In this document: in pieces, positions 4,363 through 41,306 of the stretch
Position numbering within the stretch: position 1 is the first letter of the stretch
Layout of the letters: every line of letters begins with the position of its first letter
Source: Symbiodinium natans
Taxonomy: Eukaryota > Sar > Dinophyceae > Suessiales > Symbiodiniaceae
Length of the DNA: 64,000 nucleotides
Assembly (NCBI GenBank): GCA_905221605.1
Contig: CAJNDS010000011.1
Location: 50,001-114,000, forward strand
Reading direction: 5' to 3'
Made by a program: the position numbers and the translations under genes
Notes under the pieces: model-generated
Told to the model about the DNA's origin: nothing
Databases searched by the model: none
What the model saw: only the letters and a program-made list of their open reading frames with translations

Positions 4363-4394
4363 CGGGTTTAGGTTTTAGGGTTTAGGGTTTAGGG
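4363..4394 (+). repeat. telomere-like (TTTAGGG) tract
   Basis: Four or so GGTTTAG/TTTAGGG units with one diverged unit. This is the first of the many interstitial telomere-like tracts that run to about 41.3 kb. Confidence 0.9.
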
Positions 4395-4496
4395 ACCTTG
4401 TAGGAGCAATTCTTTTGATCAGAACTGAAATCTGATGGAAGTCCGATTCCCACAAGAGCCATCAAGCCTCAGCACCAACATTCAAGATTGCTGCAG

Positions 4497-4622
4497 GATA
4501 AAGCAGCCGAGTTCCTTCCTCCGTAAACCCTATATGCGCAAGAATGACAAAGCTGGGCCAAGCAAACCTGCACCAGAAGGAAGGGTAACAGCGAAGCGCC
4601 AGAAAAGCGATCGCAATTCCAA
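4497..4622 (+). CDS. candidate exon, Lys/Pro-rich
   Basis: Seen: a CTGCAG|G acceptor at 4496, an open frame reading KQPSSFLRKPYMRKNDKAG and on through a basic, proline-containing tail, then AA|GTAAGT, a textbook donor, at 4622. Inferred: a real internal exon of a + strand gene, perhaps the first visible exon of the coiled-coil/TTLL transcription unit. No family recognised. Confidence 0.4.
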
Positions 4623-4675
4623 GTAAGTGTAGGAGTTGCTGCATTCCTCCTAACATGAATCCAAGAGCCGAACGC

Positions 4676-4932
4676 TTAGAACATCTGCTCGCAGTAGAGA
4701 GAAAGAAGAAACACTGTTCGAAAGATAGACAGAAAGAAAGATATAAATACACAAAAAAGAAAGAGAGAGAAAGAGACTGAAAGAGAGAAAGACACAAAGA
4801 GAGAAAGAGAGACAGAGACACGCCTCCATGCATATGTATCACACAAACCGGACCACAGACTGCACGCCCGGTTGGGCGGCCCCTTCGGGGGTCAAGTGCG
4901 ACGGAAGGAAGGAAGACAGAGACACAGCCCGA
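4676..4932 (+). repeat. purine-rich (GA)n/(GAAA)n low-complexity tract
   Basis: About 250 bases of GAGA/GAAA-type repeats on the + strand. The 213-residue minus-strand ORF over it is a run of Leu/Ser/Phe and is low-complexity, not a gene. Confidence 0.85.
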
Positions 4933-5115
4933 AAGGACAAGCGAGGAAAAGAGAAGAGTGACAACATGATAACACAAGAACAACATCTTACTTAGCAAAT
5001 AGTTGAACTTTAAAGTCTCTTGGGTTTCCTTATAATAGGAATAATGAAGTTTAACCTTTTTGATTCCTTGGTTATTGGAGAAGTAAGAAAAACACATAAA
5101 CATATAGATAATTGG

Positions 5116-5459
5116 CTGGTTCTTAGTAATGTTGACTTCACATTAATGATTCCCGCTACAATTATAAAATCCAGCTGCCGGAACACAATAATGTAACCCC
5201 CCACAATTATAAAATCCAGCCCGGAATATTTTTTACGACTACTACGGCTACTATTAGTAGGGGTAGGCCCTAATACTAAAAGTAATAGTACGTCCTACCA
5301 GGATTTAGGCGAATATAATTGAGGAGGCCCTGGCCGGAGAGATTGATCAATCAAGGGGGGGGGGTTTATTAATGCGAAGTCAACATTAGGGAATAAGGGA
5401 ATGAGGTACCCTATACAATCCCTGAAGCCCTACTTCCCTCATGCCCTACTAAGAACCAG
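5116..5459. mobile_element. MITE/introner-like inverted-repeat element, family 1
   Basis: Seen: outer inverted repeats CTGGTTCTTAGTA (5116-5128) and TACTAAGAACCAG (5447-5459), plus an inner inverted pair of 21 bases with one mismatch (5127-5147 against 5368-5388). The AT-rich interior (5220-5290) can fold again. The right part (5391-5459) is itself a hairpin and is closely related to the element at 20829-20930. No transposase frame. Inferred: a non-autonomous element, possibly nested. Confidence 0.7.
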
Positions 5460-5523
5460 GGAGATAAGATAGACAGAACGCCGAATCTGTGGAGCTCAGC
5501 GGAGTTTGCTCCCATGATGCGCC

Positions 5524-5600
5524 CCTAAACCCTATAAACCCTAAACCCTAAACCCCAAACCCCACTAAACCCTAACCCCTAAACCCTAAACCCTAAACTC
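5524..5600 (-). repeat. telomere-like (CCCTAAA)n tract
   Basis: About ten CCCTAAA units with CCCCAAA and CCCACTAAA variants, in the C-rich orientation on the + strand. Confidence 0.9.
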
Positions 5601-5646
5601 CCAAGTCCATTCATTAATCATGTAGGGCGCCCGAATCACCCCAAAG

Positions 5647-5723
5647 GCCAGGCGGCCCTCGAGCGCCAGCGCCAGAGCCAACAAGCTCAGCTACTGGAGT
5701 TGCACAAGCAGCTGCTTGTCCTG
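5647..5723 (+). CDS. candidate coiled-coil exon abutting a telomere-like tract
   Basis: Seen: acceptor AAAG|GCC at 5646, then a frame reading QAALERQRQSQQAQLLELHK, strongly helix/coiled-coil in type, then CTG|GTTTAT at 5723. The intron that follows runs at once into TTTAGGG repeats (5729-5750). Inferred: a small exon whose donor lies just ahead of the repeat. Confidence 0.5.
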
Positions 5724-5728
5724 GTTTA

Positions 5729-5750
5729 TTTAGGGTTTAGGGTTTAGGGT
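5729..5750 (+). repeat. telomere-like (TTTAGGG)3 at an intron start
   Basis: Three TTTAGGG units starting five bases after the predicted donor at 5723/5724. Confidence 0.85.
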
Positions 5751-5773
5751 TGTGTTTTTGGGGGAGGGGGGCT

Positions 5774-5848
5774 GGGATGTTCCCCCTTCTCAATACGCAT
5801 TGAAGTATCCCCCATTATAGTCCCCATTAAGGACTGTTAGTATAAGGG
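5774..5848. mobile_element. MITE-like element, family 2, copy 1
   Basis: Starts GGGATGTTCCCCCTT and ends GGACTGTTAGTATAAGGG; the ends are imperfect inverted complements. The same two ends, about 93 bases apart, recur at 17484-17585. No coding capacity. Confidence 0.6.
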
Positions 5849-6207
5849 AAACCATCCAGAGGGGGGGGGTTTAGGGTTTGGGCCGTTGGCTTGGCCGTTC
5901 CCTGGAAAGGGCTTGTGCTCATATCTGCTTTTGGGTCTGCAAAGGCTGGAGTAGAGGTTTCTACTTGGGAAGGAATGGGCTTTAGGCGACTTTGGTCTTC
6001 TGGTCTGCGGCTGAAGGCGGCAGCCCCCTGACTGAAGAAGGCCCAACCTCGAAGGAAAAGAACCGTTCCAAGCGTTGACGAGGCAGAAGACGCGGTTTCT
6101 CCTGGCGCTCGATGCCCAGGCCATGGACTGTTCTCTCCCGGCTTTCTGTGCAACGGCCAGCTTTCAGGCATGGTGGTTCGGAGAATCCGGTTCTCCAGGA
6201 AGGGTGT

Positions 6208-6250
6208 CCTTAAGGCCTTAAGGCCTTAAGGCCTTAGGCCTTAAGGCCTT
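6208..6250. repeat. self-complementary AAGGCCTT tandem
   Basis: Five near-perfect units of CCTTAAGG/CTTAAGGCC. Every unit is palindromic, so the tract can form alternative hairpins. Confidence 0.9.
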
Positions 6251-6477
6251 GTGGGCGTCAAGTGGGTCTGCCTGTCGTCGGCTAAACCCCGCAATCATTT
6301 GAGGGGGCTCCAGGTCCCCAGAAGATCCCAGCAGTAGTGTCGTTGCTGGCTCCCGGGTTTCTGCAGCGCGCAAGGGATCTTGAGAGCTCTGGCAGGGCTC
6401 CGCAGCACCTCTCCCTCAGCATGCCGTGGTAAAGTTGTAGCTGAGTCGACTGAATCCTGCTCAGCCCCCCAGTCCAG

Positions 6478-16566: not shown

Positions 16567-19500
16567 GCTCTCCGTGCTATGTGCCAGGATGGCCGGTTGG
16601 ACTCGCGTCCCGGTGGGCTCGCCAAAGTTCGCCATCTACTGGGGCTCGGGGGCTTGGCCCATGCTGCGCTCAAAAAACGCCCCCCCCGCAAAAACCAGCG
16701 AGGAGTGACTCGGCTCAGGCCCACATCCCTCGCCCGAGATGCCGGTGCCTTGAAGATGCAGATTGCAGCCACAGAGACCCTTTGTGAGCGCATCTTTCTT
16801 TAAGATTCACGCAGTCACGCAGTGCCTCAATGCTGACAGCATCTGTAGATTGGTCCATGAAGAACGGGACCGAGTTCAGTGCGTTTTGTCAGAAACGCCA
16901 TTGGTGTGAATTTGGTCCGGGATGGCTACGGCCAGCTGTTTTGAACTGACAGGTTTTGGGGGAAAGCCTGCATGTTTGCTTCGATGGGTGTCCCGGGATG
17001 CTTTGTAGGTGCCTTGAAGAAGCTGAGAATCTGAGAAGCAAACGGCCACAGCACCGCAGACTTTGAGGCTGAAGGGCTTCAACCCGTTCCAGAAGGCAAA
17101 CCACTTCCCCAACTCCTGGCAGTTGGGTCGCAAGGAGACCTCTGCAGCCTCTTTTTTGTTGGAGTTTTAGGCACGAACCTCATACTGAACTCTGAGATGT
17201 TGCTCACCCCACAAACGACTCTACACCCTACAATCCTTCTTCCAAGAAGAAGATCTGCGTAGTCTTTGCAGGATCTCCTCGGCAAGAACATCCACAGGCA
17301 CCGGGTTCTCTGAGCCCTACATTCGGACTTTCCTCCCCCCAACAAAAACACCACATGATACCCCAAAGCCCATAGAGCCCGAAAGCCCTGAGCCCATACG
17401 CCTCTGCTGACCAGGATGAAGCGGCAGTTTCCCAAGGACTACAACATCATGTGCCCGCCTAAGGCTCTAAAGGGTTCTGTTTTGGGATGTTCCCCCCTTA
17501 ATTATACGAAGAGTCCTTAGTAGGGATTCGAATAGGGGAGTACTATCATCCCTATTTCGGACTGTTAGTATAAGGGGGAACACCCCAAACCCTAAACCAA
17601 AAGGTCCGCTAAGATGGAGCCCAATGAACTTTCCAAAGCCCCAGCTCCTTGCTAGCTTACTAGCCCCCAACCCCCGCAAAAACTCGAGAAGCCCTAAGAC
17701 TAAGCCCTGCAAGCACGAAATCTAAACCCTACAAACCTTACAAACTCTATAACACCCCACCCCACCCCACCCCAAACCCCAAGGCCCCCAAAAGCCAACG
17801 CCTGAGGCCATTGAGCTTCAGTCTTCCTGAGGATGGGCAAGCCTGGGCCCAGGTGGCGCGAAAAGGGGAGCCCTGGAAGGTTTGGGGCTTGGGGTTTGGG
17901 GTTTAGGGTGTGCATCAGTTGACGCGTGGAGAGAGTGTACCTTTTCTTTCGATTTAGGGGCGCGACCCCCCATCACACGCTCGCACCCCAACCCCCCACC
18001 CGCACTGTTCTCTTTAGGGTTGGGGCCCAAAAACGGTTTGGGGTTCCCCCCGGCCCCACGCCCTTCCCCCCCAACCCCCAAATCAACGGGGGTGTTGGAG
18101 GCTGGGGAAGGGCACAGCCTTGTCCGAGAGGCCCAAGCGCCCGCGTTTTTGGTCAGTGGCGCTCTCGCCAGTTGTAATTAGTTGAGAAGTTTTAAATCTA
18201 GTTGGGAATGCATAGTATGAGTACGTACATGTACATGTACATGTACATGTACATGTACATGTACATGTACATGTACATGTACATGTCAGTACATGTATAT
18301 GTATATGAATAATAGCGTATGTCTAATCGTGAAAATCTCCATGCATGTGTATATGAATTTGTACGTCTGTTTATACAGAACATGTAGCATCTTATGATCT
18401 CCATGATACAGATTTATACATAGTATAGTATCAGAAAATACTGTTTTGTCTGATCTGATACAGGAAAGTTCTTTCTATCTGCTAAATGAATTTCGGTATG
18501 TCTGTGGGCGAATGTAAAGATGCGTACCAGTTGAGATGGCTCGCCCCGGTTCGTCCAACAAAGCTGCTTGACCGCGCCCAAACACATGGCGAAACATTCG
18601 GCGGTTTCACTCGTCTGGCTTGACCCCAAATGCGGTCTGTGTTGAACGGCTACAGAATGTAAGGTGATCAAGTTTAAGGATTATGGAAGACTACTGTGCA
18701 TGTCATGAGCTCCATGCACTACAATTTTTTTCGCAAGATGAGTATTATATAGTTCGTAATTAGTAGCAAAATGATTGAGCTTTATTCGACAGATTTGTGC
18801 TTCCAATCAACATTTAACGGAGCTTCACAAGACATGTGGACATTCCTTGGCTTCCAACGCTAAGGGAAGGAGGAAGCATTGATTGAAGTCGCCGTGCAAC
18901 GGTCCATTCCGCATTCTGGAGCGCGATTCTCGTCTAGTCACTGCGCGCACTTCAGGGGGCTGAAATTATGTTCTCGCCTCGGCGTCGGGTAGTCTACGGG
19001 TTCTTGGCCCAAGTCGTGGAAAGCAACGTTATTGTGCTTCAGATGTGCTGTGAAAGTACAATGCCTGCTCACGGGCCGATGAGGGGGCTACAGTTTTTGG
19101 GCTTGTTAAGGCGGAAGGCATTCTAGTGACGTGCAACATATTTGGATGGTAGCGGAGACAAAGACACATGCCAGCCAATGTATGCGTTGGTAGGCCTGGC
19201 GGTCGGGACTGTTGCAGTAGCACAGCGAGCACAGCTGTTGCAGTCAACCATTGGAAAAATGCGCGCAGGCCGCTACCTTTGCCGTCTTGCATGTTTTGTT
19301 GTGTTTTTTTTATTTTTTTTCCGTTGGTTTTTGTGGGACGAAGGCCACGTTGATAGGTTGTCATTTTTTCTTTCTTTTTGGCATGGCCCTGGCACTATGG
19401 CTTGCTGAATCTAAATGTTTGCTGTGACACACACGAGGAAGTGGTTGAAAGCATGACTTCGGGTCGCGGGTTGAAAACAGTGCATGTTGCTTGTTACGAT

Positions 19501-22500
19501 GTGTGAGACAGTCGACACAAGGTATCCGTGCAAAGTATAGAAATCCCTCGCCTTGATCTCCCGGAAAAAAAAACGAAATTTCCAGGCCTGTGCAGGCGTT
19601 GGATGGCTTTGGAGTGACTTTTCGTTTCAGTGCCCGTGCAACCATTCGCAGGCACTGGTAACATGGACTATATCATCGTGTGGGCATCGATGCTTTGGCC
19701 CTTCGAACGAATTGGTGGCATGGACGTAGATGATGATCATACGGGCATGGATGCTCTGGTCTTTCGCAACATGGACGTGCTCTTGATGTGCACGGAGACC
19801 AAAAAAGGCTGCAGGCAAACCGCGATTATTCCCCCCCTCCCCACCCCCACTGAGAGACGCCTGGCTGCAAACCCGGCGGCCTGCGTGAAACAATGCAGGG
19901 GTCTTGGAAATCACGAAAATGTCCCCTTGTATAGATATGATACGAACCACCTCCTCGCGCACTCATTCTAATTCAAAAAGTCCCCTATATCTGACGGTCC
20001 GTCTAAACGTAAGGGAGTTGAAGACACACAAGCTTCTGGCAGGCGAGGGAGCAGAATCCTGAGGCGTGATTCTCAAAATGGCGTGCCGTGGTGCTTGGTT
20101 GTTGATGGACAGGCTTCCAGTGGGATTTCAGGTGGCTGCCTCGCATTCGCGAGGAGTGCAATGGTGGCCTTCAGAACTTCTCTGGTCGGTAATTTGGGTA
20201 GAGATGTCTTCCCGCGACTCTTGTGACGTGGGACTTCCCCCCTGCTCGCCCAAGACATGCTGGTCGCGCACGGTAGCATTGCAATGCCTTGTTGGTCGCC
20301 CAAAATCCCGAAATCCTCCAACAACCAACCCTACACCTTTACACCCACAATGATGCACTCCTCCACGCAAGCTGTGAGCTGCAAAATGCCTGTCGGCAAA
20401 CTTCAGCTAATCATTATGCCTTCCAACCTGCATGCGCAACCTTGATGACGAAACGGAAGCCCAGTGACAGGCTTTATGGATTTGGAAGCCCGTCAATCTC
20501 AGCGGCTTTGGCAGCAGGAAGAGCACTTCACAATCATGTTTCATTGCTATCATAATCATAAGATCAACAACTGAAGCGAAAAACGCGAACATGAAGAAGA
20601 AGAAGAAGAAGAAGAAGAAGAAGAAGCAGAAGAAGAAGAAGAAGAAGAAGAAGAAGAAGAAGAAGAAGAAGAAGAAGAAGAAGAAGAAGAAGAAGAAGAA
20701 TAATGAGAAGACGAAGAACAAGAAAAAGAAGAAGAGGAATAAGAAGAACATGAAGAAGAATAAGAAACAAATGAAAACAAGAAGAAGAAGCAGCAATCTA
20801 CAAGCACAGATGTATATACATAAAAAGGCTGGGGTTCTTGGTAGGGAAGGAGGGAATGAGGTACCCCATATAATCCCTTGAAGGGTATATATGGGGCCCT
20901 AATCCCCTCATTCCCGACTAAGAACCAGGGGGGAAGAGGGTGATATTCAAGGCGAGGGTGATATTTTAGGGTTTAGGGTTTTAGGGTATACTGTAGGGCT
21001 TCGGGTTTAGGGTTTAGGGTGTAGGGTTCAGGGTTTAGGGTTTAGGGTCCCTAAACTGCAGGGATAAGGCGGCCGGCCTCCGCTTGGATTCAGAGCGTTT
21101 GCCAACGATGTGCTCAGGCTGCGGTAAGGGCATTCGCCCGGCGCCCGGAAGACCTAGTCCCCCCTCCCTGGCTCTTAGTAGGGAATGATGGATTAGGGTT
21201 TAGGGCTTATTCGTTTAGGGTTTAGGGGTTTTCAGTAAAGTCAGCGTGTGGCTGCATCGTGCCGAGCATTCTTTCACAAGGGACTAAACGAGGATCCTTA
21301 GAAGGGACCTTCGGGGTTATTTCGGGGCTATTTCGGGACTACGTAGGGACCCTCATGAGCGCATAGGGGTTAGTTAGGGGTTAGTTAGGGGTTAGTTAGG
21401 GACGACTTTGGTATGTAGGGACGAGCCCCCTAATCCTAAACCCTAAGCCCTAAGCCCTGAGCCCTAAACCCTAAACCCTAAACCCTAAACCCTAAACCCT
21501 AAACCCTAAACCCTAAACCCTAAACCCTAAACCCTAAACCCTAAACCCTAAACCCTAAACCCTAAACCCTAAACCCCATTAACTCACCTCCGAGGTCTCC
21601 TTGAGTCATCCCTGGCCCCGAGCGTGGAGAAGAAACTCATGCAGAGGCCTGGGAAGCGTTTTTGAGGGTCCTTAATTCCTCAGGGTTTAGGGTTTAGGGT
21701 TTAGGGTTTAGGGTTTAGGGTTTAGGGTTTAGGGTTTAGGGTTTAGGGTTTAGGGTTTAGGGTTTAGGGTTTAGGGTTTAGGTTTAGGGTTTAGGGTTTA
21801 CAGGGTTTAGGGGTTTGTAGGTCGGCCCTTGGGACTTTTTATGTTGGGTTTAAGAGGATCATATTCAGGAGTATTTGTCAGAGGGTTTTAAGGGCCATCC
21901 CAGTTGAGAATTCCTAACATGCATTCATGGTCAGCTGCTAGGCTACGTAGTTGAGCAGTAGTTCGTGATTGTCGACGTTGATCCCATGCTGGCTGCTGCT
22001 TGCCTCGCGCAGAGTCACTGCGACAGTCGCAATGCTCGTGCCAAGCAGAACGGCTGAACTCAAGGGTTTCTGCACACCAACTAATTGCAAAAGAACCCCC
22101 CCCCCCAAAAAAAAAGAGTCTTTGTTATAAGGGTAACACTGGCATGATTATCCGTTATTGATTGGGGGTTCTGAAGCAAATAGTAGAGCATCAGCTAGAA
22201 GGGTAAGTTGTGGCAATGTTCGTTTTGTTGCCGATTGCATCATTTTCACATGGCAAGGCAGCATTTTCACCACGGGGGTTACCCCTCTGCCCATGACTGC
22301 CTGACTAAGTTCAGAGCATCTAAGTGCTGAGTCCAAGGTCAGGTGTCGTGCAGAGGTACGTGGATCGACCGCAGGGGCGCCCAGGATTTGTCCAGGGCAG
22401 TGGAGCTTACGCAGCGACTGTTCCCAAGAACCTCGATATGGAATTTACGAACAGGGGACCCCTATTCTTGGACCCCAAATAGTAGGATCCCTTTCTGAAA

Positions 22501-25500
22501 AAAGGTTTCCATGAAGGTACCCCTATTATCGTAAACCCCCATATTGGCTTGACTGTTCATGGCGAAGCAACCTGGATCTCTGAACTGCGTCGGTCTAGTC
22601 CGAGGCTGCTGATCAACGGCTTCAAGTTCGACCTTCGCCTCTACGTGGTAGTCGCCCGGCAATGATGCTTCTTCCGAGAGGGCCGGGATCCCGAAACCCT
22701 AGCCCTAAACCCTAAACCCCAGGAGCTGGCCTGTGAACCAATCCTTTCGTTTTGTGGACCCCCGGCGCTTGTTGCCCTTTCTAGGACCAGTTCTGTCACG
22801 CTTGCTTCCGACATCTTCTGGGGGGTTTGTGGCTCCTTTCGGGTTCTGAACCTTTCACTTGCTCCATTTGGGGTAACATTTTATATTGCTAAGGGTGCTG
22901 AAACTCAATAAGGAGTAAAAATTTAACTTGTTAATGCGAGCCAACCATGAACTAGTTCAGTTGCGGCATTAGGGTTTTGGGGAAAACCCTCCATCCCCAC
23001 AGTTTCCCCAAGCTCTCCGCAACGAATCTCTTGAGACTGTGCCCCAGGTGGAAGTTGCTTGAGACTTTAGACTAGGTTTCGGCGCGGTCTTCCTCCAACC
23101 TTAAACCCTAAACCCTAAACCCGCCCTAAACCCTACACCGTACACCCTAAACCCTAAAGTCTCAGGATTTGCTAGTTTGGGGTCTGGGTTTGGAGCCTTG
23201 GGCTTTGAGCTTCGGCGTCCATAACAAAGGGCCCCAACTTGAAGCAAGTCCCAGGTGACTTCTTTCGATCCTCTGAAGGCCTGGTCTTGGCGTGCCTTAG
23301 AGGGCTTGGTGCTGTGACTTCCAGTGCACCGGCCCCCCCCCCCCCCCTGCATTTCGGAAGGTCTACATCAATGAGGAGGGTCTCGTGCGCTTGGCGACGC
23401 AGAAATACCGGTGTTCGGCCGACAGTCCTGGGCTCAGGGCCGCGAAGGATAGAGTGTTAGTCAAATATGTAGGGGCTTGAACTCCTCAAGCCGAGGCCTA
23501 CAGGAGAGGACCATGCACCTCACCAACTACTCAGTGAACAAGCACGCAGCCAGCCGCGCGGCAGAATCTCACAGAATTTCGTAGAAGCTCACGACCAATG
23601 GATGTCACAGAACGCTCCTGGCGTGGAAGGCTACAAGCAAAATCTTGACGGGCAAGCCACGGGGGATCCGACCCCGGCAGAGGAGGTTGCCGTCAGTGAC
23701 AGTTGTGTCTCTCCGAAGGGTGTAAGCGCACTCTTTTGCAAGGCCGAGCCCGAGGGAGACGCCCCCGAAGCCCGGGACCCAGCCGCCACCTTGCGACACT
23801 TCAGCTCCCTTCTTCGATGTGCAAGGTCCTAGCTGGCGATGCTGATCCGGAGGCCAACTGCGTGTGTCTAACACCCTTCTAGGCCCCAAACCCTGAGCCC
23901 TCAACACCCACTCAGAGTCCCCTGTGCAGGAGAGCCGCGAGGCATCGAAGTGGTCGCTGAAGCCAAAGACCTGGCATCTCTGAGTCCCTAAATGCCCTAG
24001 ACTCCTAGACGCTCCTGTCAGACACCAAGCGCTCATCCAACTGGGACTCGAAGGAGGTAGTTTCACACCCTGTGTAAAGTGCCTGCCCCTGAGGCAGCTC
24101 CTGGAGTACTCCAAGGCTCATGGCCTCGGGCTAAGAGGCACTTGCAGCCTGTGTGAGTAGATTGGCAGCTCCTCTCCACGTAAAGAAGACAGCGATGCAC
24201 ATAAGGCATCGACTACGACTTGATGATGTCGCGGATCGAGGATGTCATCATCAAGTCGCTTATTGCAGTTGAGCCGCCTTCTCAGCCCGTCTGGGGAGTT
24301 CCCATTGCCTGCCCTTTCAAGTGGATGCCTGTAGTAACTTTAGATTCAAGGGTCAAAGCGGCTCACAGATGCTCGACTCTGAATCTGCGAAACTCTGTGT
24401 CTCAGGTAAACGGTCACTGCAGACGTAGCTCCTGTGCAGCTGGCTAGCAGTATCTAGCCGTAGAAGCATTCAGAGAACACCCGCCGGAGCACCGCGTGCA
24501 AATGCAAGAAGTCATCTCCTCCTTGTCAGAAGAAAGAGAGAGGCCGACCCCCCCAATGTCCTGGGCTCTAGTCCCACGTTTCTTGAAAACCCGAAACCCC
24601 AAACCCTAAACCCTAAACGGACCCTCGGGGAGCGGCCTTGTGCTGCCCGCAACCACGGGTGGCCTCTTTGTGCTTAGGTACAAAAAACATCGGCAGGCGC
24701 GTGCTTTCCGGCATGCGCTGGTGCTGAGAGAAGCACGCAAATCCTGGACTCGAAACTGGATTGAGTGCGGAAACTGCACGCCTCCCGAGTATTTGCTTGT
24801 CGCGCTCTCCGTTTTTTTTAGGCTTTTCAAGAATCACCCAGCTCAAAAACCCTCACACAAGCACAGTCTCTAAAACCTGGCATGCAAGCCAAGTATTTGC
24901 AAATGGGGTGGCTGTGCCACCTCCAACCCTCCCGCTGGAGTATCTGCAAACATTCAAAGAGAGTACGTGCTCGGGATACCCAATATTCATGGTGTTGTTC
25001 TTTGTTGCTGCACTAGTTCCAAATGGGGGGGCTGCGCCCCTCCCCAACCCCCCTCTCAAAATCTCGCAAGCACAGTCTCAAAAATCTGGCACACACAAGC
25101 CAAGTATTTGCAAAGGGGGGGGGGGGGGCTGCGCCCCCCCAGCCCCCCCGCTGGAGTATCTGCAAATATTCAAACAGGGTACTTGCTCTGCCCCAACACA
25201 AGGGTATAGGTTGGGCCCAAGGGTGGCGCAAGGGACGCACAAGGCTGGCGCAATACAGCATGGCTGATGTGAAGCCATGGGCCTTAACAGAGGATCTTCG
25301 GAGGTGGGCAGCCAGAGGCTTCCCCAGGCAGCAGGAAGATAGAAAATGAACGGCTTCGCCACAGCCAGGGACAGCTTCGACACCGGGATGTGTAGAGCAA
25401 GGTGGGCAATGTTTGTGATTTGAGGGCCCCAAGGAGCTTGTCGGTACCACGTTTTGTAGTTGGCATGTTTGCCGGTGTGGTCAAACACTAGCACGGGGCG

Positions 25501-27773
25501 AGGCGCAAGGGAACCCCTAGGTCTTGGGCGTGGCACTAGAATTATAGACAACATCCACTTTCTCATAGGGCGGCACAAGGCCTCTGCGCGACCCTAAACC
25601 CTAAACTCTAAACCCTAAACCCTTAACCCGAAACCCGAAACCCTGAGCTGCCATCCAAGGCCTCAGATTGTCAACACCTGGCATCAGGCTCCTGACATGT
25701 GCGCAGTGCTGGTGTATGGCTCAACCCCAAGCCCTGACCTCCATGAAGCCCCAGAACCCCACACCCCGAGCCCTAATCCCTAAAACCTAAACCCAAGAAA
25801 CCCTACACCTCAAGTCCTGAACTCTAAACCCTAAGCCCTAATACCCACACCCCAAGCCCCAAACCCGAAACCCCAAGCCCTAAACCCTAAACACCCTGAA
25901 CCCTACACCCTAAACACCCAAAACCCACAACCCAAAAACCCAAAACCCAAAACCCTAAACCCTAAACCCTAAACCCCAAACCCCAAACCCCAATTCTAGG
26001 CCGGTGAGAGTTCGCTCGGGTTTTCTGGCCTCCCTCCCGGCCCTGAGGGTGCCAATTTCTCAGTGGCCTGCCCCGGGCCGATCCAGCAGGCCTGGGGGGT
26101 TTAGGGTTTAGGGTTTAGGGTTTAGGGTTTTAAGGCTTTGGGGGTTTAAGGTTTTAGGGCTTAGGGTTTAGAGGTTTTAGGGGTTTAAGGTTTAAGGTTT
26201 TAGGGTTTAGGGTTTAGGGTGGAGGGTGGAGAGTGGAGGGTTGAGGCCAGGCCTTGTTTGAAGCGATGACGGGCAGCCTTGTTTTGGGCCAAAGGGCTTG
26301 ACACAGTTTCATGCTACGAAACAGGAGTAGTAAGTGTTGATTTGCATAGGTGATCTCAGATGTTTCTCCTGAAATGCACGGGCGCTGGCCCAGTGCAAGA
26401 GTTGGATGAATGCTCGGGCGCTCGGACGTAAGTGCGGCCGTTGGCGTGTGCTAGGTGCGTATGGTGACGTCGTGGGCTCAGGCTCAAGAATCGCCGAACG
26501 TGATCACGACCAAGATATGTCCCAAAGGAGCGTGCACACAATGGAGATCTTTTGTCGCGAGCAGCAAAGGGGAATAGATGGCAGACGCCCTGGCGCGGCG
26601 TGGCGCAGGGCCCATTGGGTTCCTGCATTTTTTGGGAGCTCTGGTCGCTTTCACCAGTTCGCACCGCAAAACCACAATGTTCTGCATTGCCCAATCTTGT
26701 GGGCAGTCCGCCGTCCATTCGTGCTCCCACCATTCCCAACCCGCGTGTTGTGTGCTTGGCTCGGTACGTTGTCGACCCTTGACTGTCAAGGGCAGAGTGG
26801 GCAGAGAGGGTTGCAGTCGGAGCTGAGGGGTCTTCGATGTTCGGTCCCATTGTTGACACGTAGCGTCGCGGTGCTGTCAGATTGGCCCGAACCAGACCTG
26901 CTTTGAGATCTACGGCCGCAGCCTCGAATTCCACAGCAAGTCTTCCCCAAGGGGTTGACGACTTGAGGAGTTACAGGTCGAAGGCAGGGGTTCAAGGCTT
27001 TGGGTTTAGGTCGTCCAGACTTGATAGGGTTTGCGGAGGGTTTGTGGGGCTTGTCAAGGTTTTATAGGCTTGAGGGTTGCGCTCGCCAGGCTTTGACATA
27101 CTGGTGGACAGCGACCTCCGGTAAGCCTGCCGAGCTTGGCTTTCCCTGAAGCGGCTGCGCGGAACCCTGAGCTCCAGGTCCCACAACAGAGCTATGATTT
27201 TTTTGCAGCATCTCTCTCTCCCTCCCTGTGCTGTTGTTAGGCCTTGCCCCACCCTCAGGAGTAGGCGTGGGGCGGGGCCTCTTGATCCATCTATGTCGAA
27301 GATGTATTCGGTAAGGCGCCCAATTCCATGAAAAGAAGGCCCAGCGAGCACCTTCGTGCGTCAGCCAGGCCATGGTTGCTGGAGGTCAACGTCTTCCCGT
27401 GCGGCCTTCAATATGGCTGGTTTGCCGTGTTGAGTGCAGGGCCCCTCAACTCTCAACCCTCAACCCATCAGCCCTCAACCCGCAGCCCTCAACCCTAAAC
27501 CTAAACCCTAAACCTCAAACCTTTTGAGGCTTTAGAACTTGAGGGTCTTGCGTGAAGTGGTCAAACCTGGGATCACGACTGACTCGAAGGTCGTTCTCCT
27601 CCTCGTCGCCTTACGACAAGAGGATCAAGACTCAACTTGTGGCTGATGTGTCAGTGACCCGGGAATTCCACCAAAGGATTACTTTAGCTGATGCTTTCTT
27701 ACTTGTTGAGGTTCACCCTGCTCGGCATCCCCCCCTACAGCCATGATGCTGTGGAAAGTGCATGCAAGGACCG
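16457..27773 (+). CDS. tubulin tyrosine ligase-like (TTLL) polyglutamylase, catalytic core in about 20 exons
   Basis: Role (known for the family): ATP-grasp ligase that attaches glutamates to tubulin tails on axonemal or cytoplasmic microtubules. Seen, exons in order: 16457-16486, 16524-16566, 17060-17134, 17272-17297, 17415-17456, 17807-17879, 20471-20501, 21118-~21140, 22343-22370, 22605-22653, ~23361-23410, ~23504-23545, from 23575, ~24080-24122, 24206-24288, 26881-26914, 27090-27120, 27369-27398, 27590-27649, 27711-27773. Together they spell the TTL signatures from YNAVVNTFK and NHFPNSWQLGRK through WIWKPVN, KFDLRLYVVV, HLTNYSVNK and LLEVN to TLLGIPPY. Most joins keep phase. The sequence style is nearest TTLL4/TTLL5-type enzymes of protists. 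Uncertain: the exact borders of exons 8, 11-14, and whether an exon is missing between 21140 and 22343. Possible 5' exons lie upstream (4.5-16.4 kb) and 3' exons downstream (29.9-33.1 kb). Confidence 0.85.
17060..17456 (+). CDS. TTLL exons 3-5: NHFP block
   Basis: Exon 3 (17060-17134) reads TLRLKGFNPFQKANHFPNSW then QLGRK and ends AAG|GAGACC (GA donor). Exon 4 is only 26 bases (17272-17297) and reads DLLGKNIH; its CACAG|GCACC is a GC donor. Exon 5 (17415-17456) restores R and reads MKRQFPKDYNIMC before CC|GCCT (GC donor). NHFPxSWxLGRKDLL followed by RMxxxFPxxYxIMP is diagnostic for TTLL enzymes. The exon 3-4 and 4-5 joins are exact in phase. Confidence 0.85.
17484..17585. mobile_element. MITE-like element, family 2, copy 2 (inside TTLL intron 5)
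   Basis: Ends GGGATGTTCCCCCCTTA (17484-17500) and GTATAAGGGGGAACACCCC (about 17567-17585) are inverted complements. The internal GGACTGTTAGTATAAGGG is identical to the copy at 5831-5848. It sits within the 350-base intron 17457-17806, consistent with an introner-type insertion. Confidence 0.65.
17807..17879 (+). CDS. TTLL exon 6: LPED block
   Basis: TGAG|GCCATTG acceptor; frame SFSLPEDGQAWAQVARKGEP then WK. It matches the TTLL segment before the nucleotide-binding lysine. The donor is TGGAAG|GTTTGGGG, and the intron starts directly with GTTTGGGG/GTTTAGGG telomere-like units. Confidence 0.75.
18219..18296 (+). repeat. (GTACAT)n microsatellite
   Basis: About 12 hexamers with one GTCAGT interruption, followed by ATGTATATG-like units. 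Each hexamer is nearly self-complementary. Located in TTLL intron 6. Confidence 0.97.
20471..21140 (+). CDS. TTLL exons 7-8: ATP-binding lysine and glycine loop
   Basis: Exon 7 (20471-20501): GTGACAG|GCTTTATGG acceptor, frame ALWIWKPVNL, GC donor A|GCGGC. Exon 8 (from 21118): GCTCAG|GCTGCGG, and joined in phase it reads NLSCGKGIR. In ATP-grasp TTLs the Lys of WxxKP contacts ATP and the Gly-x-Gly loop closes over phosphate; both are intact here. The end of exon 8 is unclear (21136-21142). The 616-base intron holds a (GAA)n tract and a MITE-like element. Confidence 0.8.
20591..20790 (+). repeat. (GAA)n microsatellite
   Basis: About 200 bases of GAA/AAG triplets with few interruptions, inside TTLL intron 7. 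The Lys, Phe, Leu and Ser homopolymer ORFs on both strands are artefacts of it. Confidence 0.97.
20829..20930. mobile_element. MITE-like hairpin element, family 1, short copy (TTLL intron 7)
   Basis: CTGGGGTTCTTGGTAGGGAA at the left and TTCCCGACTAAGAACCAGG at the right are imperfect inverted complements; inner arms GGGAATGAGG and CCTCATTCCC also pair. Closely matches 5391-5459. A half-copy end (CCTGGCTCTTAGTAGGGAATG) occurs at 21167-21187. Confidence 0.7.
21426..21818. repeat. two long telomere-like arrays in divergent orientation
   Basis: (CCCTAAA)n at 21434-21576, about 20 perfect units after CCCTAAG/CCCTGAG variants, then 100 bases of unique sequence, then (TTTAGGG)n at 21683-21818, about 19 units. 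C-rich first and G-rich second is the arrangement of both ends of a miniature chromosome, not of an end-to-end telomere fusion. It lies in the intron(s) between exons 8 and 9. Confidence 0.95.
22343..22653 (+). CDS. TTLL exons 9-10: VVQRYVDRP and KFDLR
   Basis: Exon 9 (22343-22370) reads VVQRYVDR and ends CC|GCAGGG (GC donor). Exon 10 (22605-22653) follows CGAG|G and, in phase, gives DRPLLINGFKFDLRLYVVV. The Lys, Asp and Arg of KFDLR are active-site residues in the TTL family. The donor is GTC|GCCC (GC). Confidence 0.9.
23361..23545 (+). CDS. TTLL exons 11-12: EEGLVRLATQKY and HLTNYSVNK
   Basis: Exon 11 (~23361-23410) reads VYINEEGLVRLATQKY. A 16-17-base C run and TTTCGGAAG precede it, so its true start may be a few codons earlier. 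Exon 12 (~23504-23545) reads ERTMHLTNYSVNKH after CTACAG|G; the donor is either CAC|GCAGCC or GCG|GCAGAA, both GC. HLTNYSxNK is the strongest single TTL signature. The phase between exons 11 and 12 does not close with the borders given, so one border is wrong. Confidence 0.85.
23575..24288 (+). CDS. TTLL exons 13-15: NFVEAHD to IEDVIIKSL
   Basis: Exon 13 starts CTCACAG|AATTTCG and reads NFVEAHDQWMSQNAPGVEGY, then runs on as an acidic, Ser-rich frame whose end is unclear; it may be a lineage-specific loop. Exon 14 (~24080-24122) reads CLPLRQLLEYSKAH and ends G|GCCTCG (GC donor). Exon 15 (24206-24288, acceptor ATAAG|GC) restores Gly and reads GIDYDLMMSRIEDVIIKSLI then AVEPPSQP, ending CCC|GTCTGG. 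IEDxIIKxL is a conserved TTLL helix. Confidence 0.85.
24865..25190 (+). repeat. ~209-bp-spaced direct repeat with GC hairpin cores
   Basis: 24865-24972 and 25074-25190 are ~80% similar by eye, and a third partial core lies at 25018-25050. Each carries a hairpin of the type GGGGGGCTGCGCCCCCC followed by a CTGGAGTATCTGCAAA-type segment. In TTLL intron 15. Confidence 0.85.
25590..26222. repeat. degenerate telomere-like tracts, C-rich then G-rich
   Basis: 25596-25650 and 25760-25993 carry many CCCTAAA/CCCCAAA/CCCGAAA variants. 26098-26222 carries TTTAGGG with TTTAAGG variants. The orientation is again divergent, within TTLL intron 15. Confidence 0.9.
26881..27398 (+). CDS. TTLL exons 16-18: CFEIYGFDILVD and LLEVN
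   Basis: Exon 16 (26881-26914) reads IGPNQTCFEIY and ends TACG|GCCG (GC donor). Exon 17 (27090-27120, CGCCAG|GC) reads GFDILVDSDL and ends CG|GTAAGC. Exon 18 (27369-27398, GCCAG|G) completes RPWLLEVNVF and ends CC|GTGCGG. All phases close. The Asp of GFDILVD and the Glu and Asn of LLEVN are the metal/ATP residues of the fold, so the active site is intact. Confidence 0.92.
27590..27773 (+). CDS. TTLL exons 19-20: SSSSPYDKRIK to TLLGIPPY
   Basis: Exon 19 (27590-27649) starts CGAAG|G and joins exon 18 to give PSFSSSSPYDKRIKTQLVAD; the donor is GT|GTCAGTG. Exon 20 (27711-27773) starts TTGAG|G and reads FTLLGIPPYSHDAVESACKD, with a CG|GTTTCT donor. This is the C-terminal edge of the TTL domain. 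Confidence 0.88.
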
Positions 27774-31411: not shown

Positions 31412-32162
31412 TGTCGGTAGCTTGCAAGTGCTGGGATCCCTTTCTTTGCGATGCAAGTGATTTTTGCTGGATTGCCACAGATCTTCGGTTTTGTTACACG
31501 GGCATCCGTTGGAGCAAGTTGCAATGCTCGCAAATGCGGTGCTTGAAGTTTGTCAGCCTGAACAGTGGTGCTCTGATGCAATAAGTCCGGTTCCCGTTTG
31601 CTCCGGATCTGTCAGGCAGTCCAGAACCAAACCGTGGGGCGGGGGGGGGAGGGCACCCGCCGGTGGGCTACTGTATGGATAGGGAAGACGCGTTCATCTG
31701 TGATCACAGGGCTAACGCAAAGAATGTTCGGTAGTTCTTTGTTGTTCTGTTGCACCCACCTCTTTTGCAGGAGCAGTGCGTGTCAGAGAAAGTGCCTCGT
31801 TCCATTGGGTTCGCGTCTGTTCATACCGGGGTTCCGGTGCCACACACTTTTGCTTGAACAACGGTGCGGGGGGGGGGGGGAGATGTACGCATGTATATAT
31901 ATATATACAGAACATATGTATGGAGATAGATATAGATTTATGGCGGCATGCCATATTCAGCAAGGACACATCTACAAGCATCTTCAGCCCCAAGAGCCTT
32001 GGAGCCCGAAAGCCCCAAGGCCCTCTAAACCCTTACAGCCCCAAAACCCTCGCGAGTCCCGCAGGGTTTAGGGTTTCTGGTTTAGGGATGAGGGTATGTA
32101 AAGTCCAAAGCCAAGCAGGAAAAGCCCTGGGCCCTCCCAAAACAACCCGAAATGCCCCTGAA

Positions 32163-35186: not shown

Positions 35187-37690
35187 ACACCTCGACCTTC
35201 AACTCTTCTCTCAGAGATATTTCAAAATCCCCCCCCCCCCCCCACTCATTTGTACTCACACTTCGACTTTCAACTCTTCTCTCAGAGATATTTCTAAATC
35301 CCACCCCCCTCATTTGTACTCACACTTCGACATTCAACTCTACTGTCAATTATGTTAAATCTCACCCCCCCCTCATTTGTCCTCACACTTCGACATTCAA
35401 CTCTTCTCTCAGAGGTCTTGTTCAATCCCACCCCCCTCCTTTGTACTCACACTTCGACATTCAACTCCACTCTCAATTATGTTAAATCTCGCCCCCACTC
35501 ATTTGTACTCACACCTCTCAACTATGTTAAATCTCACCCCCACTCATTTGTACTCACACCTCGACTTTCAACTCTTCTCTCAGAGATATTTTGAAATCCC
35601 ACCCCCCCCTCATTTGTACTCACACTTCAACATTCAACTCTACTGTCAAATATGTTAAATCTCACCCCCCTCATTTCTCCTCTCACCTCACTCATTTCTC
35701 CCCACACTTCGAGTTTCTATTCTTCTCTCCGGTTTATTTTAAATCACACCCCCTCATTTGTTCACACCCTCGGCCTTCAACTCTTCTCTCAGAGATATTT
35801 CTAAATCCCACCCCCCCCCCCCCCCCCCCTCATTTGTACTCACACTTCGACATTCAACTCTACTCTCAATTATGTTAAATCTCACCCCCCCCCACTCATT
35901 TGTACTCACCCCTCGGCTTTCAACTCTTCTCTCAGATCTACTCTCAATTATACTCAATCTCGCCCCCCTCATTTCTCCTCTCACCTCACTCATTTCTCCA
36001 CACTTCGAGTTTCAATTCTTCTCTCCGATTTTTCAAATCACACCCCCCTCATTTGTTCACACCCCTTCGACTTTCAACTCTTCTCTCAGAGATATTTCTA
36101 AATCCCACCCCCTCTCATTTGTATCCACACTTCGACATTCAACTCTACTCTCAATTATATTAAATCTCATCCCCCTCATTTCACCTCTCACCTCACTCAT
36201 TTCTCCCCACACTTCGGGTTTCAATTCTTCTCTCCGGGTTTTTATTTTAAATCACACCCCCTTCATTTGTCCTCACACCTCTCATTTGTACTCACACCTC
36301 TACTTTCAACTCTTCTGTCAGAGATGTTCTTTAAATCCCACCCCCCCTTATGTGTACTCACACTTCGACATTCAACTCTACTCTCAATTATGTTAAACCT
36401 CACCCCCCTCATTTCTCCTCTCACCTCACCCATTTCTCCCCACACTTCGAGTTTCAATTCTTTTCTGCGGGTTATTTTAAATCACACCTCCCTCATTTGT
36501 CCTCACACCTCGACCTTCAACTCTTCTCTCAGAGATATTTGTAAATCCCACCCCCCCTCATTTGTACTCATACTTCGACATTCAACTCTACTCTCAATTA
36601 TGTTAAATCTCACCCCCCTCATTTCTCCTCTCACCTCACTCATTTCTCCCCACGCTTCGAGTTTCAATTCTTTTCTGCGGATTATTTTGAATCACACCCC
36701 CTTCATTTGTCCTCACACCTCTCATTCGTACTCACACCTCTACTTTCAACTCTTCTGTCAGAGATGTTTTTTAAATCCCACCCCCCTCATTTGTACTCAC
36801 ACTTCAACATTCAACTCTACTGTCAATTATGTTAAACCTCACCCCCCTCATTTCTCCTCTCACCTCACTCATTTTTCCCCACACTTCGAGTTTCAATTCT
36901 TTTCTGCGGATTATTTTAAATCACACCCCCTTCATTTGTCCTCAAATGAAGGATTTGTACTCACACCTCTACTTTCAACTCTTCTGTCAGAGATGTTTTT
37001 TAAATCCCACCCCCCCCCCCTCATTTGTACTCACACTTCAACATTCAACTCTACTGTCAATGATGTTAAACCTCACCCCCCTCATTTCTCCTCTCACCTC
37101 ACTCATTTCTCCCCACACTTCGAGTTTCAATTCTTTTCTGCGCATTATCTTAAATCACACCCCCTGCATTTGTCCTCACACCTCTCATTTGTACTCACAC
37201 CTCGACTTTCAACTCTTCTGTCAGAGATGTTTTTTAAATCCCCCCCCCCCCCCCCCTCATGTGTACTCACACTTCGACATTCAACTCTACTCTCAATTAT
37301 GTTAAATCTCACCCCCACTCATTTGTACTCACACCTCTCAATCATGTTAAATCTCACCCCCACTCATTTGTACTCACACCTCGAATGTCAACTCTTCTCT
37401 CAGAGATGTTTTTTGAAATCCCACCCCCCCTCATTTGTACTCACACTTCAACATTCAACTCTACTGTCAAATATGTTAAATCTCACCCCCCTCATTTCTC
37501 CTCTCACCTCACTCATTTCTCCCCACACTTCGAGTTTCTATTCTTCTCTCCGGTTTATTTTAAATCACACCCCCCTCATTTGTTCACACACCTGGACCTT
37601 CAACTCTTCTCTCAGAGATATTTCTAAATCCCACCCCCCCTCATTTGTACTCACACTTCGACATTCAACTCTACTCTCAATTCCCCTAAA
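35187..37690 (+). repeat. C-tract-punctuated satellite with higher-order structure
   Basis: About 40 monomers of 55-85 bases, each bounded by a run of 5-17 C then TCATTT. At least three monomer types exist, with cores TTCAACTCTACTCTCAATTA, TTCAACTCTTCTCTCAGAGA and TCTCCTCTCACCTCACTCAT. The third type recurs at about 35670, 35968, 36176, 36411, 36621, 36852, 37085 and 37494, giving a higher-order period of mostly 208-235 bases. The 477-codon ORF and its relatives are artefacts of a repeat lacking stops on +. Confidence 0.95.
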
Positions 37691-38175: not shown

Positions 38176-38609
38176 ACCACCCCGAACCCCCCTTCCCCGG
38201 TTTAGACAGGTCCACATCATTTGAAGACTTTTTGCCGCATGCCGTTCACCCACCTCTCAAGCACAATATTCCCTACTGTCTTGGGTCTTGGATTCTTGGG
38301 GGTAGCCCTTTGGGCCATGTTGGAGACCCTGTGAGTATGTGCTCGCGAGGAGGTTGACTTGAAGGGAAGCCAATGAGGCCGAAAGTGAAGCTTGCTTAAG
38401 GTGCAGAAGACCACAATCCTAAACCCCACCTACAGCTCTGAATCCTAATCTCGGAACGGTCCATCCTCCAAAATTTCTGCAGATTTTGAGGAGTAACTGT
38501 TCAGATACAGCCGAGTCTCACCGTCGCATCATATGTGACTCTTGTGAAGGTTGCCAGCATGCAAAGCATGCCTGTCGGTGCAGAAAGCGGGCAATCGGCC
38601 AAAAAAGCT

Positions 38610-39025
38610 TATGTTGGTATATACACATATAAATAGAACAAAACAGGGATAAAGAACAACAATGTAACAATGCATCACTGTAACACTCTAACATTCTGAC
38701 AATATAGCAGTATAGTTCAAGGATGGAGAATACAACATATATTCATAGAATTGAATAATGATATAGTCTTAGGATAGTCACAGTATAATACTATCACAAT
38801 ATCAACATATACCCATATGATATATACATGTACATATGGTTCTATTTAGTCATATAGTAGTAGAACAATATTATTGTTAAGATAGCTCTACTATATTTTA
38901 TTGACATAGCAATATGTAATATAGTAGCAACATACTTTCATAACTCAAATACAATGTAAATATAGCTACGAATAGATAATATATCAACATATCATACTAG
39001 ATCAATATAAGAGTACTAGGACATA
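38610..39025. other. AT-rich island
   Basis: About 415 bases made mostly of ATA/CATA/TATAG words in a GC-leaning region. No ORF, no organelle gene motif seen, no clear terminal repeats. Could be a matrix-attachment-like region, an old element or organelle-derived. Confidence 0.7.
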
Positions 39026-39413
39026 GTTCCGAAAAAGAGGGGCAGAGGACACTCGGCTTGGTGCCTAAGGAGAGTCTTTCAGTGTCAGTTGATGAATGAT
39101 CACGACAGCTCCCTCGCCAGCTTGTGCTGGAAAGTCTTAGGGTTTAGGGTTCAGGGTTCAGGGTTTAGGGTTTAGGGTTTGTGGAGGGTCACCAGGCGTA
39201 CTCCTGTTGCATCTGTGTGTGAGGCTGGATTGTTGCCATTAGGGGGCGGATAAGTCCGACACATAGGCGTGGGAGTGAGCAGGAGAGGACAGGCAAGAGT
39301 TCGGCCGGGAAACGGCCGGAGAAGTGCACAACCTCAACTCTTAAGGCTAGAGCCAACCCCACCCAGCAGCGCTCCCAGCAGCATGCACACTACAACCTGG
39401 CACTGTCTTGCAG

Positions 39414-39909
39414 TTTGTTAACTCAATGGAGCAAACCATACCTTCGTCCCTTGAAACCCTGCCCGCCCTTCGCAGCCGGATCCAAGAGATTGCCGGTTCA
39501 GTGGTCATGTATGTTCCTAGCCAATTTTCATTGTTTGGGTTATTGCTGGGTTGTCACTATAGCGCTTTTCTTATCAACAGCTGTAGATCCTATCCTCTGC
39601 GCATGTGCTTTGTGTACGTCTTGACTCGTTTAAGCCTGAAGCTGCTAGATTTAGATTTTCTGGTGCAATCCCAGAAGTTTCTGCCACATGAACTCTCGGG
39701 AGCTACGGGGCGGTATCGAAAAGATTTCCGGGATTTTGTAGGTGATTCGCCATTCTTTTGCGATTTTTTGGCCAATTTTTGATTTTGGGCTCTGTCCCCA
39801 TGTTCTCTGAGTTTCAGATGGCCGAAGAGCGTCGGCCGACGGATCTGCCCGAAGGCTTGCGTGGATGAGGTGCCGCGAGTGAAGCTCCCAGAGCAGTCAG
39901 CATCATCTG
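39414..39909 (+). CDS. candidate two-exon gene segment, unassigned
   Basis: Exon A 39414-39508: CTTGCAG|TTT acceptor, frame FVNSMEQTIPSSLETLPALR then SRIQEIAGSVV, donor AT|GTATGT. Exon B 39818-39909: TTTCAG|ATGG acceptor; joined in phase it reads IWPKSVGRRICPKACVDEVP then RVKLPEQSASS, donor TCTG|GTTTAGGG. The intron after exon B starts with the telomere-like repeat itself. Confidence 0.45.
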
Positions 39910-40559
39910 GTTTAGGGTTTCGGGTTTAGGGTTTCGGGTTTAGGGCCTCATGCGCCAAACTCCGGCAGCACCCTGAGCCCTAACACCCAAACATTAAGTC
40001 TTGCCCGAAGCCCAAACGAAAGGGTTCCTGAGGACGATCTGTGATCGGTGCTTGGCAAGTCTTACTCAGTTCTTACTCTTCTTAATGGGTGCAATGAGGA
40101 ACCCAATGGGCGACCGAAACTCCCTCAAGAAAATAGGTGTTAAGCCGAAGCATTAGCCCTATAAGCCCTTCAGCATCAAATGCCTAACCATGAATTGTCC
40201 TTTTCACAATCACGCGTGCAACAGACATCAACAGTAGCACTGTAACATGTTGGGTTGATCAGTTTTTTCGGTGACCGATGCACAGTCTTGCAACGAGCAG
40301 CAAAGATGCCGCTGGCACGTTTTGCGCCGCCTGGGCTTTTGTTGACGGCAAAAACACAACTGGAGTGCAGCGAAAGCCGCAACACAACTGGAGTGCAGCG
40401 AAAGCCGCATCCCTGCCAATGTTTTCGACAACAAAGAAAGCAGTGATTGGCCATCACCCGATTGCGCTCGCTATGACTCTTCAGCCCAAACCCTGGCAAA
40501 CCCTATCACTTGAAACCCGAAAAACCCCTCCTCAATGTCTTCCGGGTTCAGCCCACAAA

Positions 40560-40905
40560 GGCACCAGGCGTTTAAACATCGACTTCCTCAGGCTCCCCCA
40601 AGCACATCCGTATAGCCAAGGGCTGCAGCAGCTTCCCAAAGGCTCTCGTGAGCCGTCGAAAGTCGATATCGGCACCCTGAATGCTAGGTTTATTCGCACA
40701 TGCCCCAATCCTAACAGGGGTTCTTCAATGCCGAAGCTCCATGAAAAGTCGACCTGCAGGATGTGGTGCCACCAGTGGGACCGCCTAGACATCCACGCCC
40801 GAGCCGTGGTTCAGAATCTGGTGGAAGCTACCAGTATGAGAGCTGAGAGCAGGTTGCGCTCGCTTGTTCCCACTTGGGGCAGCATGCAGCGATTCACTTT
40901 GCGCA
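40560..40905 (+). CDS. candidate exon, unassigned
   Basis: Part of a long + frame. It reads RRLNIDFLRLPQAHPYSQGL, later CRMWCHQWDRLDIHARAVVQ and NLVEATSMRAESRLRSLVPT, before the frame enters a T/G-rich low-complexity tract (40906-41110) that is probably intron. No family recognised. Confidence 0.35.
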
Positions 40906-41210
40906 GGAGTTGTTTTTTTGCTTGTTTGCTTTTGTTGCCGTTTTGTTTGTGTATTTGCTTCTTTTGTTCGTCCGTTTGTTTGTTTGGTTCAGTGACTCTT
41001 TCTTTGTTTGTTTATTGGCTGCTTTGTCGTTGTTTCGTTTTTCGTTGCCTCTTTGCTTCCTTGTACTTGCTTCTTTGTTTTTGCTTATTTGTTTGTTTGC
41101 TTGCCTGTGCATGCGCGTGCTCGTGCCCGTTCCATTTCTCAGACTTAACAACGGCAGAGGTGGATTAGGTCCGACGAAGTCCTCACCTCAAAGCCTGAAG
41201 TCCTACAGCC

Positions 41211-41306
41211 CTGAACCCTAAACCCTAAACCCCAAACCCCAAACCCCAAACCCTAAACCCTAAACCCTAAACCCTAGCTCTAAACCCTAAACCCTGAAGC
41301 CCTGAA
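41211..41306 (-). repeat. last telomere-like (CCCTAAA)n tract of the window
   Basis: About 11 units with CCCCAAA and CCCTGAA variants. I see no tandem TTTAGGG/CCCTAAA tract downstream of this point. Confidence 0.9.

Follow-up and report, generated by a model that had tools for sequence, protein, structure and literature searches.

Short tracts of the telomere unit at internal chromosomal sites, or interstitial telomeric sequences, are known from primates, rodents and horse. In horse, 142 such short loci have been reported, and in human the intronic loci fit random insertion (PMC7215372); in a table of the same paper, 31 of 40 loci (two rows, summed here) have at least one base in register at the junction. 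Among dinoflagellates, the introners of Amoebophrya and Prorocentrum carry inverted repeats towards both intron ends (PMC7789003, PMC10666404), and in the related Polarella glacialis the simple repeat (TTG)n covers ~19% of the assemblies (PMC7245778). According to a review, TTTAGGG is the dinoflagellate telomere unit (PMC11453091). Here, tracts of TTTAGGG and its complement CCCTAAA are described in a 64,000-nucleotide stretch of Symbiodinium natans DNA (assembly GCA_905221605.1, contig CAJNDS010000011.1, positions 50,001 to 114,000, or C11:50,001-114,000; the whole stretch is called the window), in a sample of further stretches, and across the whole assembly.

The S. natans tracts resemble interstitial telomeric sequences of mammals in being short runs of the telomere unit at internal sites, but they amount to ~3.6 million double units and are oriented around exon-sized spacers. 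With introners they may share a layout of inverted repeats, whereas here the units are telomeric and variable in length, the remaining DNA is mostly unshared within the sample, and long target duplications are rare. The Polarella expansion is likewise a simple repeat that fills a large part of a genome, but its unit is a different one, and orientation relative to exons is not mentioned in the available text of that report. No account of telomere repeats oriented around exons was found in the literature searched, in which subscription papers were not covered. The usual view of interstitial telomeric repeats is that they are scars; in S. natans they are a bulk genome component, with a strand that is tied to exon-sized spacers. 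The explanation that we favour, and consider somewhat probable, is that these repeats have invaded non-coding DNA, introns included, and that a constraint imposed by splicing sorts their strand. The very many copies serve as replicates of a natural experiment that asks how inserted DNA is filtered by splicing, and whether introns grow through telomerase or through slippage.

Abundance and distribution of telomere-like tracts

The assembly searched comprises 759.4 Mb in 2,543 contigs. The perfect double unit TTTAGGGTTTAGGG occurs 1,788,098 times on one strand and 1,787,600 times on the other (~3.58 million in all), whereas the same sequence reversed, used as a control, gave 257 + 280 matches, or 537. 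At 7 bases per match, the double units occupy at least ~25 Mb, which is 3.3% of the assembly. Assemblers have difficulty with short tandem repeats, and individual tract lengths may be wrong. Nonetheless, an assembly artefact or chance is hardly credible as the source of the pattern, given the excess over the reversed control, a strand asymmetry that depends on distance (see below), and tract flanks that are mostly unrepeated within the sample.

The sample consisted of the window and 19 stretches of 10 kb that were picked by contig number, and thus not at random (231,500 known bases in total, four of the 19 stretches being partly unknown sequence). The 10-kb stretches contain between 0 and 40 tracts of at least two units each, which are short, interspersed and in both orientations. 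Telomere-like words, including variants, make up ~19-37% of the tract-dense stretches L010-L013 and L019, and 2-5% of five tract-free stretches of the same genome (L018 and L020-L023), which have higher coding scores than the tract-dense ones under a crude codon model. The genome is a mosaic of tract-rich and tract-free stretches.

With 1.3 double units per kb, against 4.7 per kb genome-wide, the window is poorer in tracts than average. It contains 179 single TTTAGGG/CCCTAAA units, compared with a mean of 8.58 (maximum 16) in 50 dinucleotide-preserving shuffles done within 2-kb blocks, and 81 perfect double units, compared with none in the shuffles. All exact units are confined to positions 4,363-41,306, with none in the remaining window. 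Grouped into tracts of at least two units, they form 34 tracts in both orientations, spanning 4,374-41,291, and the last 22.7 kb of the window lack tracts. A preliminary description of this DNA had reported more than 25 tracts in both orientations between 4.4 and 41.3 kb, a count that is confirmed and exceeded. The tracts are internal to the contig and have other sequence on their flanks, as is characteristic of interstitial telomeric sequences. That they lie outside predicted exons, as was also reported, is automatic: a six-unit tract has stops in all three frames of either strand, and tracts of such length are therefore barred from open frames. The zone and its most regular modules are as follows.

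4374..41291, both orientations: zone of all 34 telomere-like tracts (at least two units)
5577..5749: C3 - 131 bp - G3 module, its spacer with the open, coding-looking stretch ALERQRQSQQAQLLELHKQLLVL, for which no family was found
21462..21573, minus strand: CCCTAAA x16 tract
21686..21812, plus strand: TTTAGGG x16 tract, 112 bp past the C tract at 21462..21573 and forming a C-spacer-G module with it
25953..26127: C3 - 126 bp - G4 module

Tract orientation depends on spacing

If splicing filters inserted tracts by strand, then their orientation is predicted to flip across exons. In contrast, if orientation results from break formation or healing on transcribed strands, rather than from selection on splicing, then one orientation is predicted throughout a gene. 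Two opposed layouts were compared, namely a C-rich tract, a spacer and a G-rich tract (C-G), and the reverse (G-C). This comparison needs no gene calls, because C-spacer-G reads alike on both strands.

Genome-wide, the balance between the two layouts changes with spacer length. At 15-45 bp, C-G is the rarer layout (3,488 versus 8,523; ratio 0.41). At 85-115 bp it predominates (107,320 versus 41,057; ratio 2.6), as it does at 200-230 bp (321,834 versus 148,393; ratio 2.2), a value that also includes the outer parts of long tracts flanking a shorter spacer. By 370-400 bp the two are nearly equal (140,314 versus 138,292; ratio 1.01). These are counts of the start positions of opposed double units, in which long tracts are counted several times; among the 100 matches listed for each layout at 85-115 bp, the C-G matches represent 57 places and the G-C matches 37, all on one contig. 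In the sample, neighbouring opposed tracts that lie 75-150 bp apart are C-G in 31 cases and G-C in 9 (binomial p=0.0007). The orientation bias belongs to spacers of approximately exon size; it is inverted below that size and gone by 370-400 bp. A transcription-coupled origin is in keeping with a bias that acts at short range, but the C-G excess amounts to a flip across each spacer rather than a constant orientation along a gene, and we consider such an origin very unlikely.

The spacers themselves also differ. They were scored with a crude coding model, trained mainly on kinesin frames and by itself too weak for gene finding. In the sample, C-G spacers of 75-160 bp (n=34) have a GC content of 0.605 and a coding score of 3.60 (2.14 when shuffled). 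The corresponding values are 0.510 and 0.80 (shuffled 0.62) for C-C spacers (n=14), 0.545 and 1.35 (shuffled 1.38) for G-G spacers (n=20), and 0.512 and 1.24 (shuffled 0.97) for G-C spacers (n=10). In this sample of 34, C-G spacers look exon-like by base composition and coding score, and the C-C, G-G and G-C spacers do not.

A putative splicing constraint

In the favoured explanation, interstitial telomeric repeats would have multiplied in the non-coding DNA of this dinoflagellate genome, including its introns. Exons would tend to be preceded closely by CCCTAAA, in the last part of one intron, and followed closely by TTTAGGG, in the first part of the next. The most likely cause, reasoned rather than measured, would be a splicing filter under which the sense strand is preferably G-rich past a donor and C-rich ahead of an acceptor. 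Each sense TTTAGGG unit resembles an acceptor (TTTAG/G, the slash marking the potential splice site) and may be costly near the 3' end of an intron, where it could compete with the true acceptor. After a donor, a sense G tract would be tolerated, and there it could also supply GT and GGG. The CCCTAAA strand, for its part, offers no AG, GT or GC. New tracts would be added at breaks in the manner of telomerase, or would grow as GGG runs slip against each other, and would then decay.

A more far-reaching proposal is that telomere-derived inverted repeats constitute a splicing architecture. Tens of thousands of small exons, by extrapolation, would lie between complementary CCCUAAA and UUUAGGG tracts, the pairing of which within introns or across exons would help in exon definition, skipping or circularisation. 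A parallel is provided by inverted Alu pairs, which lie as mutually complementary repeats to either side of exons that are circularised and can pair across them; here, the pairing is that of a predicted fold, between telomeric units. For instance, one candidate exon of L019 together with its two tracts has a predicted fold of -187.7 kcal/mol, versus -98.1 for shuffles. Such a strong fold would arise with any inverted pair of tracts and is no sign of function. We regard the proposal as doubtful. If it were true, the enzyme that maintains chromosome ends would indirectly have become a builder of introns.

Exons anchored by homology

Exons recognised by protein homology allow the layout to be compared with coding sequence directly. 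Chained candidate exons were submitted to Pfam (8 of 18 chains in one set and 5 of 10 in another, one chain of the latter being cut to 527 of 744 residues), and among these 8 + 5 chains, families were found only for L019 on the minus strand (ankyrin) and for 19.5-27.5 kb of the window on the plus strand (ligase). The L019 gene is an ankyrin-repeat gene (PF00023, E=3.3e-7 on chained fragments); the match spans two of the four exons first taken as ankyrin, the other two having no Pfam match. The window gene, at ~22.6-23.4 kb, encodes a tubulin-tyrosine ligase (PF03133, E=3.8e-8 on joined fragments and E=3.2e-8 when its two exons are taken by themselves). Additionally, a kinesin search gave 98 matches, about half of which were retrieved. 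The ligase exons and the tracts near them are listed in order.

22591..22657, plus strand: tubulin-tyrosine ligase exon part (LLINGFKFDLRLYV...), within the PF03133 stretch; boundaries set by eye
22703..22716, minus strand: C tract, 45 bp past the anchored ligase exon and opposite to the genome-wide preference
23106..23158, minus strand: C tract, its end 202 bp before the ligase exon at 23,361
23361..23424, plus strand: tubulin-tyrosine ligase exon (VYINEEGLVRLATQKY), within the PF03133 stretch
23504..23575, plus strand: possible next ligase exon (MHLTNYSVNK, by eye; end uncertain), weak PF03133 match (E=0.013) that misses the family cut-off but follows the order of the profile
24207..24275, plus strand: candidate ligase exon by eye (YDLMMSRIEDVIIKSLIAVE), no Pfam match alone

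The direct test set comprised 43 exons (36 kinesin, 4 from L019 and 3 ligase). It left out L039 171-243, L040 167-216, L041 84-140 and L043 60-169, which have inner stops or disturbed frames, as well as all of L044 and the long kinesin matches of L030-L037. Kinesin exons L051 and L052 and one Pfam-supported ankyrin exon of L019 are bracketed on both sides, with a C tract before and a G tract after; two more candidate exons of L019, coding-looking but lacking Pfam support, are bracketed as well. Offsets are counted from the matched exon end. On this count, G tracts within 40 nt downstream of five Pfam-supported exons start at +1, +8, +16, +30 and +34 (L019, L061, L051, L052 and L060, respectively), and C tracts within 100 nt upstream of Pfam-supported exons end 6, 40, 43, 61 and 77 nt before them (L052, L019, L051, L057 and L058, respectively). 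For the two unsupported L019 candidates, the G tract starts at +9 and +17 and the C tract ends 45 and 31 nt before.

Several results weigh against the favoured explanation. Over the 43 exons, the C-before/G-after rule holds on 15 sides and is broken on 9 (p=0.31), and 25 exons have no telomere unit within 200 bp. Four of the agreeing sides were supplied by the two L019 exons that have no Pfam match; with these and one equally unsupported ligase exon removed, the count falls to 11 versus 9 sides in 40 exons. A further agreeing side (L067) agrees by unit number only, the nearest tract being G-rich. One of the two Pfam-supported ankyrin exons stands in the reversed arrangement. Similarly, in the ligase gene of the window, where the intron between the two anchored exons holds C tracts, the nearest tract after an exon is C-rich. 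A sense G tract ends 15, 29 and 46 nt upstream of kinesin exons L065, L067 and L054, respectively, positions that would be forbidden under a strict splicing filter. Lastly, overlapping-start counts within the sample are weak (C-G 19, G-C 13, C-C 7 and G-G 13). The genome-wide rule, a preference and not a law, is neither backed nor excluded by the anchored-exon test.

Separately, a 14-bp direct repeat surrounds the G tract at one candidate exon end on the minus strand of L019 (~2,270-2,600), and by eye, this intron start is found a third time, in diverged form, ~175 bp further on.

Origin of the tracts

The 20 long loci contain 300 arrays of at least two units. For counts of array ends, only arrays with a non-telomeric flank were kept. 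The 3' ends fall after GGG, GGGT, GGGTT and so on in 26, 19, 11, 6, 5, 4 and 4 of 75 cases, and the 5' starts are distributed by phase as 10, 3, 6, 15, 19, 15 and 11 of 79. Biased ends of this kind would follow from priming at ends rich in G, and equally from slippage of one GGG run against another. The flanks are rich in the variant units TTTGGGG, TTCAGGG and CTTAGGG, as expected of decay. Common flanking words were also sought in the 20 long loci as traces of telomerase-RNA inserts, and only variant telomere units were found. Telomerase-type repair, which the preliminary description had suggested, is a possible source of the tracts.

Plain microsatellite growth, meaning slippage at chance GGGTTTAGGG seeds in introns without telomerase, is one of the two tract origins within the favoured explanation and may also be considered as a complete account in its own right. 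Array starts lie preferentially within (A)GGG and array ends after GGG or GGGT, as expected if GGG runs slip against each other; the variant units that fill the flanks are in its favour too, as is the (TTG)n precedent in Polarella. It leaves unexplained why the telomere unit in particular dominates, and only if combined with a splicing filter can it account for how tracts are oriented around exon-sized spacers. As a complete account it is possible, though not what we expect.

The preliminary description had offered an intron-generating mobile sequence as another source. If the tracts belong to an introner-type element, then each intron would be an inserted unit, with inverted repeats at its TTTAGGG 5' end and its CCCTAAA 3' end supplying both splice sites. 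The preferred layout would correspond to inverted repeats near both intron ends, and it is by such repeats that the published dinoflagellate introners were scored (PMC7789003, PMC10666404). Additionally, direct repeats flanking the tracts exceed a mispaired control, with repeats of at least 7 bp at 35 of 176 tracts (20.2 expected) and of at least 10 bp at 4 (0.74 expected; L019 has the longest, of 14 bp, followed by L012 with 11 bp). However, most tracts have no flanking direct repeat, two of the four longest repeats are themselves repeat-like, and for many exons a tract is present on just one of the two sides. Outside their tracts, L010-L013 and L019 match the rest of the sample over just 0-354 bp of 10 kb, and such limited sharing speaks against one spreading intron family. 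Many introns carrying one family sequence, as would be expected of introners, were not found in this small sample, in which introns were not delimited. With long flanking repeats rare and little sequence shared beyond the tracts, the mobile-sequence proposal is not upheld in the sample, and an introner-type origin is unlikely. Target-site duplication, a feature that some introner families lack, is not supported as a general rule: flanking repeats are above control and yet absent from most tracts.

Proposed splice junctions in the window

Three introns of the window had been described as starting in or just before a tract, with the repeat unit as a possible ready-made GT donor. Two of these junctions have the following form (slashes mark the proposed boundary), and the third lies within the module at 5577..5749.

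17874..17909, plus strand: junction TGGAAG/GTTTGGGG with a degenerate G tract; donor not anchored by homology
39906..39945, plus strand: junction TCTG/GTTTAGGG with a G tract; donor not anchored by homology

All three strings exist, starting at 5,721, 17,874 and 39,906, with the boundaries at the bases proposed. The open stretch ALERQRQSQQAQLLELHKQLLVL stops at the 5,723 junction. However, each internal unit reads G/GTTTAGGG, so that GT junctions at tract edges are to be expected and do not in themselves support a donor role; the junction string TCTGGTTTAGGG recurs at 32,076. None of the three proposed donor exons is anchored to a known protein family. Use of the unit as a donor would need tracts to start near +1, and the starts observed after the five Pfam-supported exons are spread from +1 to +34; tracts lie near the donor, rarely on it. 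The broader suggestion that tracts have shaped gene structure survives in part: their non-random, distance-dependent orientation across the genome fits exon-sized spacers, and a donor role of the junctions is not supported.

Other features of the window and the assembly

Just beyond the tract zone, window positions 1270-3438 (plus strand) hold a stop-free open frame of 723 codons that matches the DUF3556 transmembrane family (PF12077, E=8.3e-31). Within the zone, at 35236-37680, arrays of C-rich units (~63 bp each) sit inside higher-order repeats (~127-229 bp), and the GC skew falls to -0.585. The tract-free part contains two tandem repeats, one with a 311-bp unit (54270-56337; 6.7 copies, 93% match) and one with a 293-bp unit (57210-58083; 3 copies, 98% match).

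Elsewhere in the sample, the tract-dense loci L011 (2743-2866) and L013 (1191-1312) share a 125-bp element, 85.6% identical and in inverted orientation, which may be a small transposon. L014 (C15:120001-130000) has a GC content of 0.368, versus 0.48-0.55 in the other sampled stretches, and may be foreign, organellar or otherwise unusual DNA.

The dinoflagellate spliced-leader core has 205 exact copies in the assembly and none in the reversed control. For S. natans, 244 spliced-leader sites have been reported (PMC8045281), in a paper of which the main text contains no word starting with 'telomer'. Six of the cores lie on one strand of a single contig (C479:102078-129887), with four of the five gaps at ~3.8 kb, and are likely to represent a spliced-leader tandem array.

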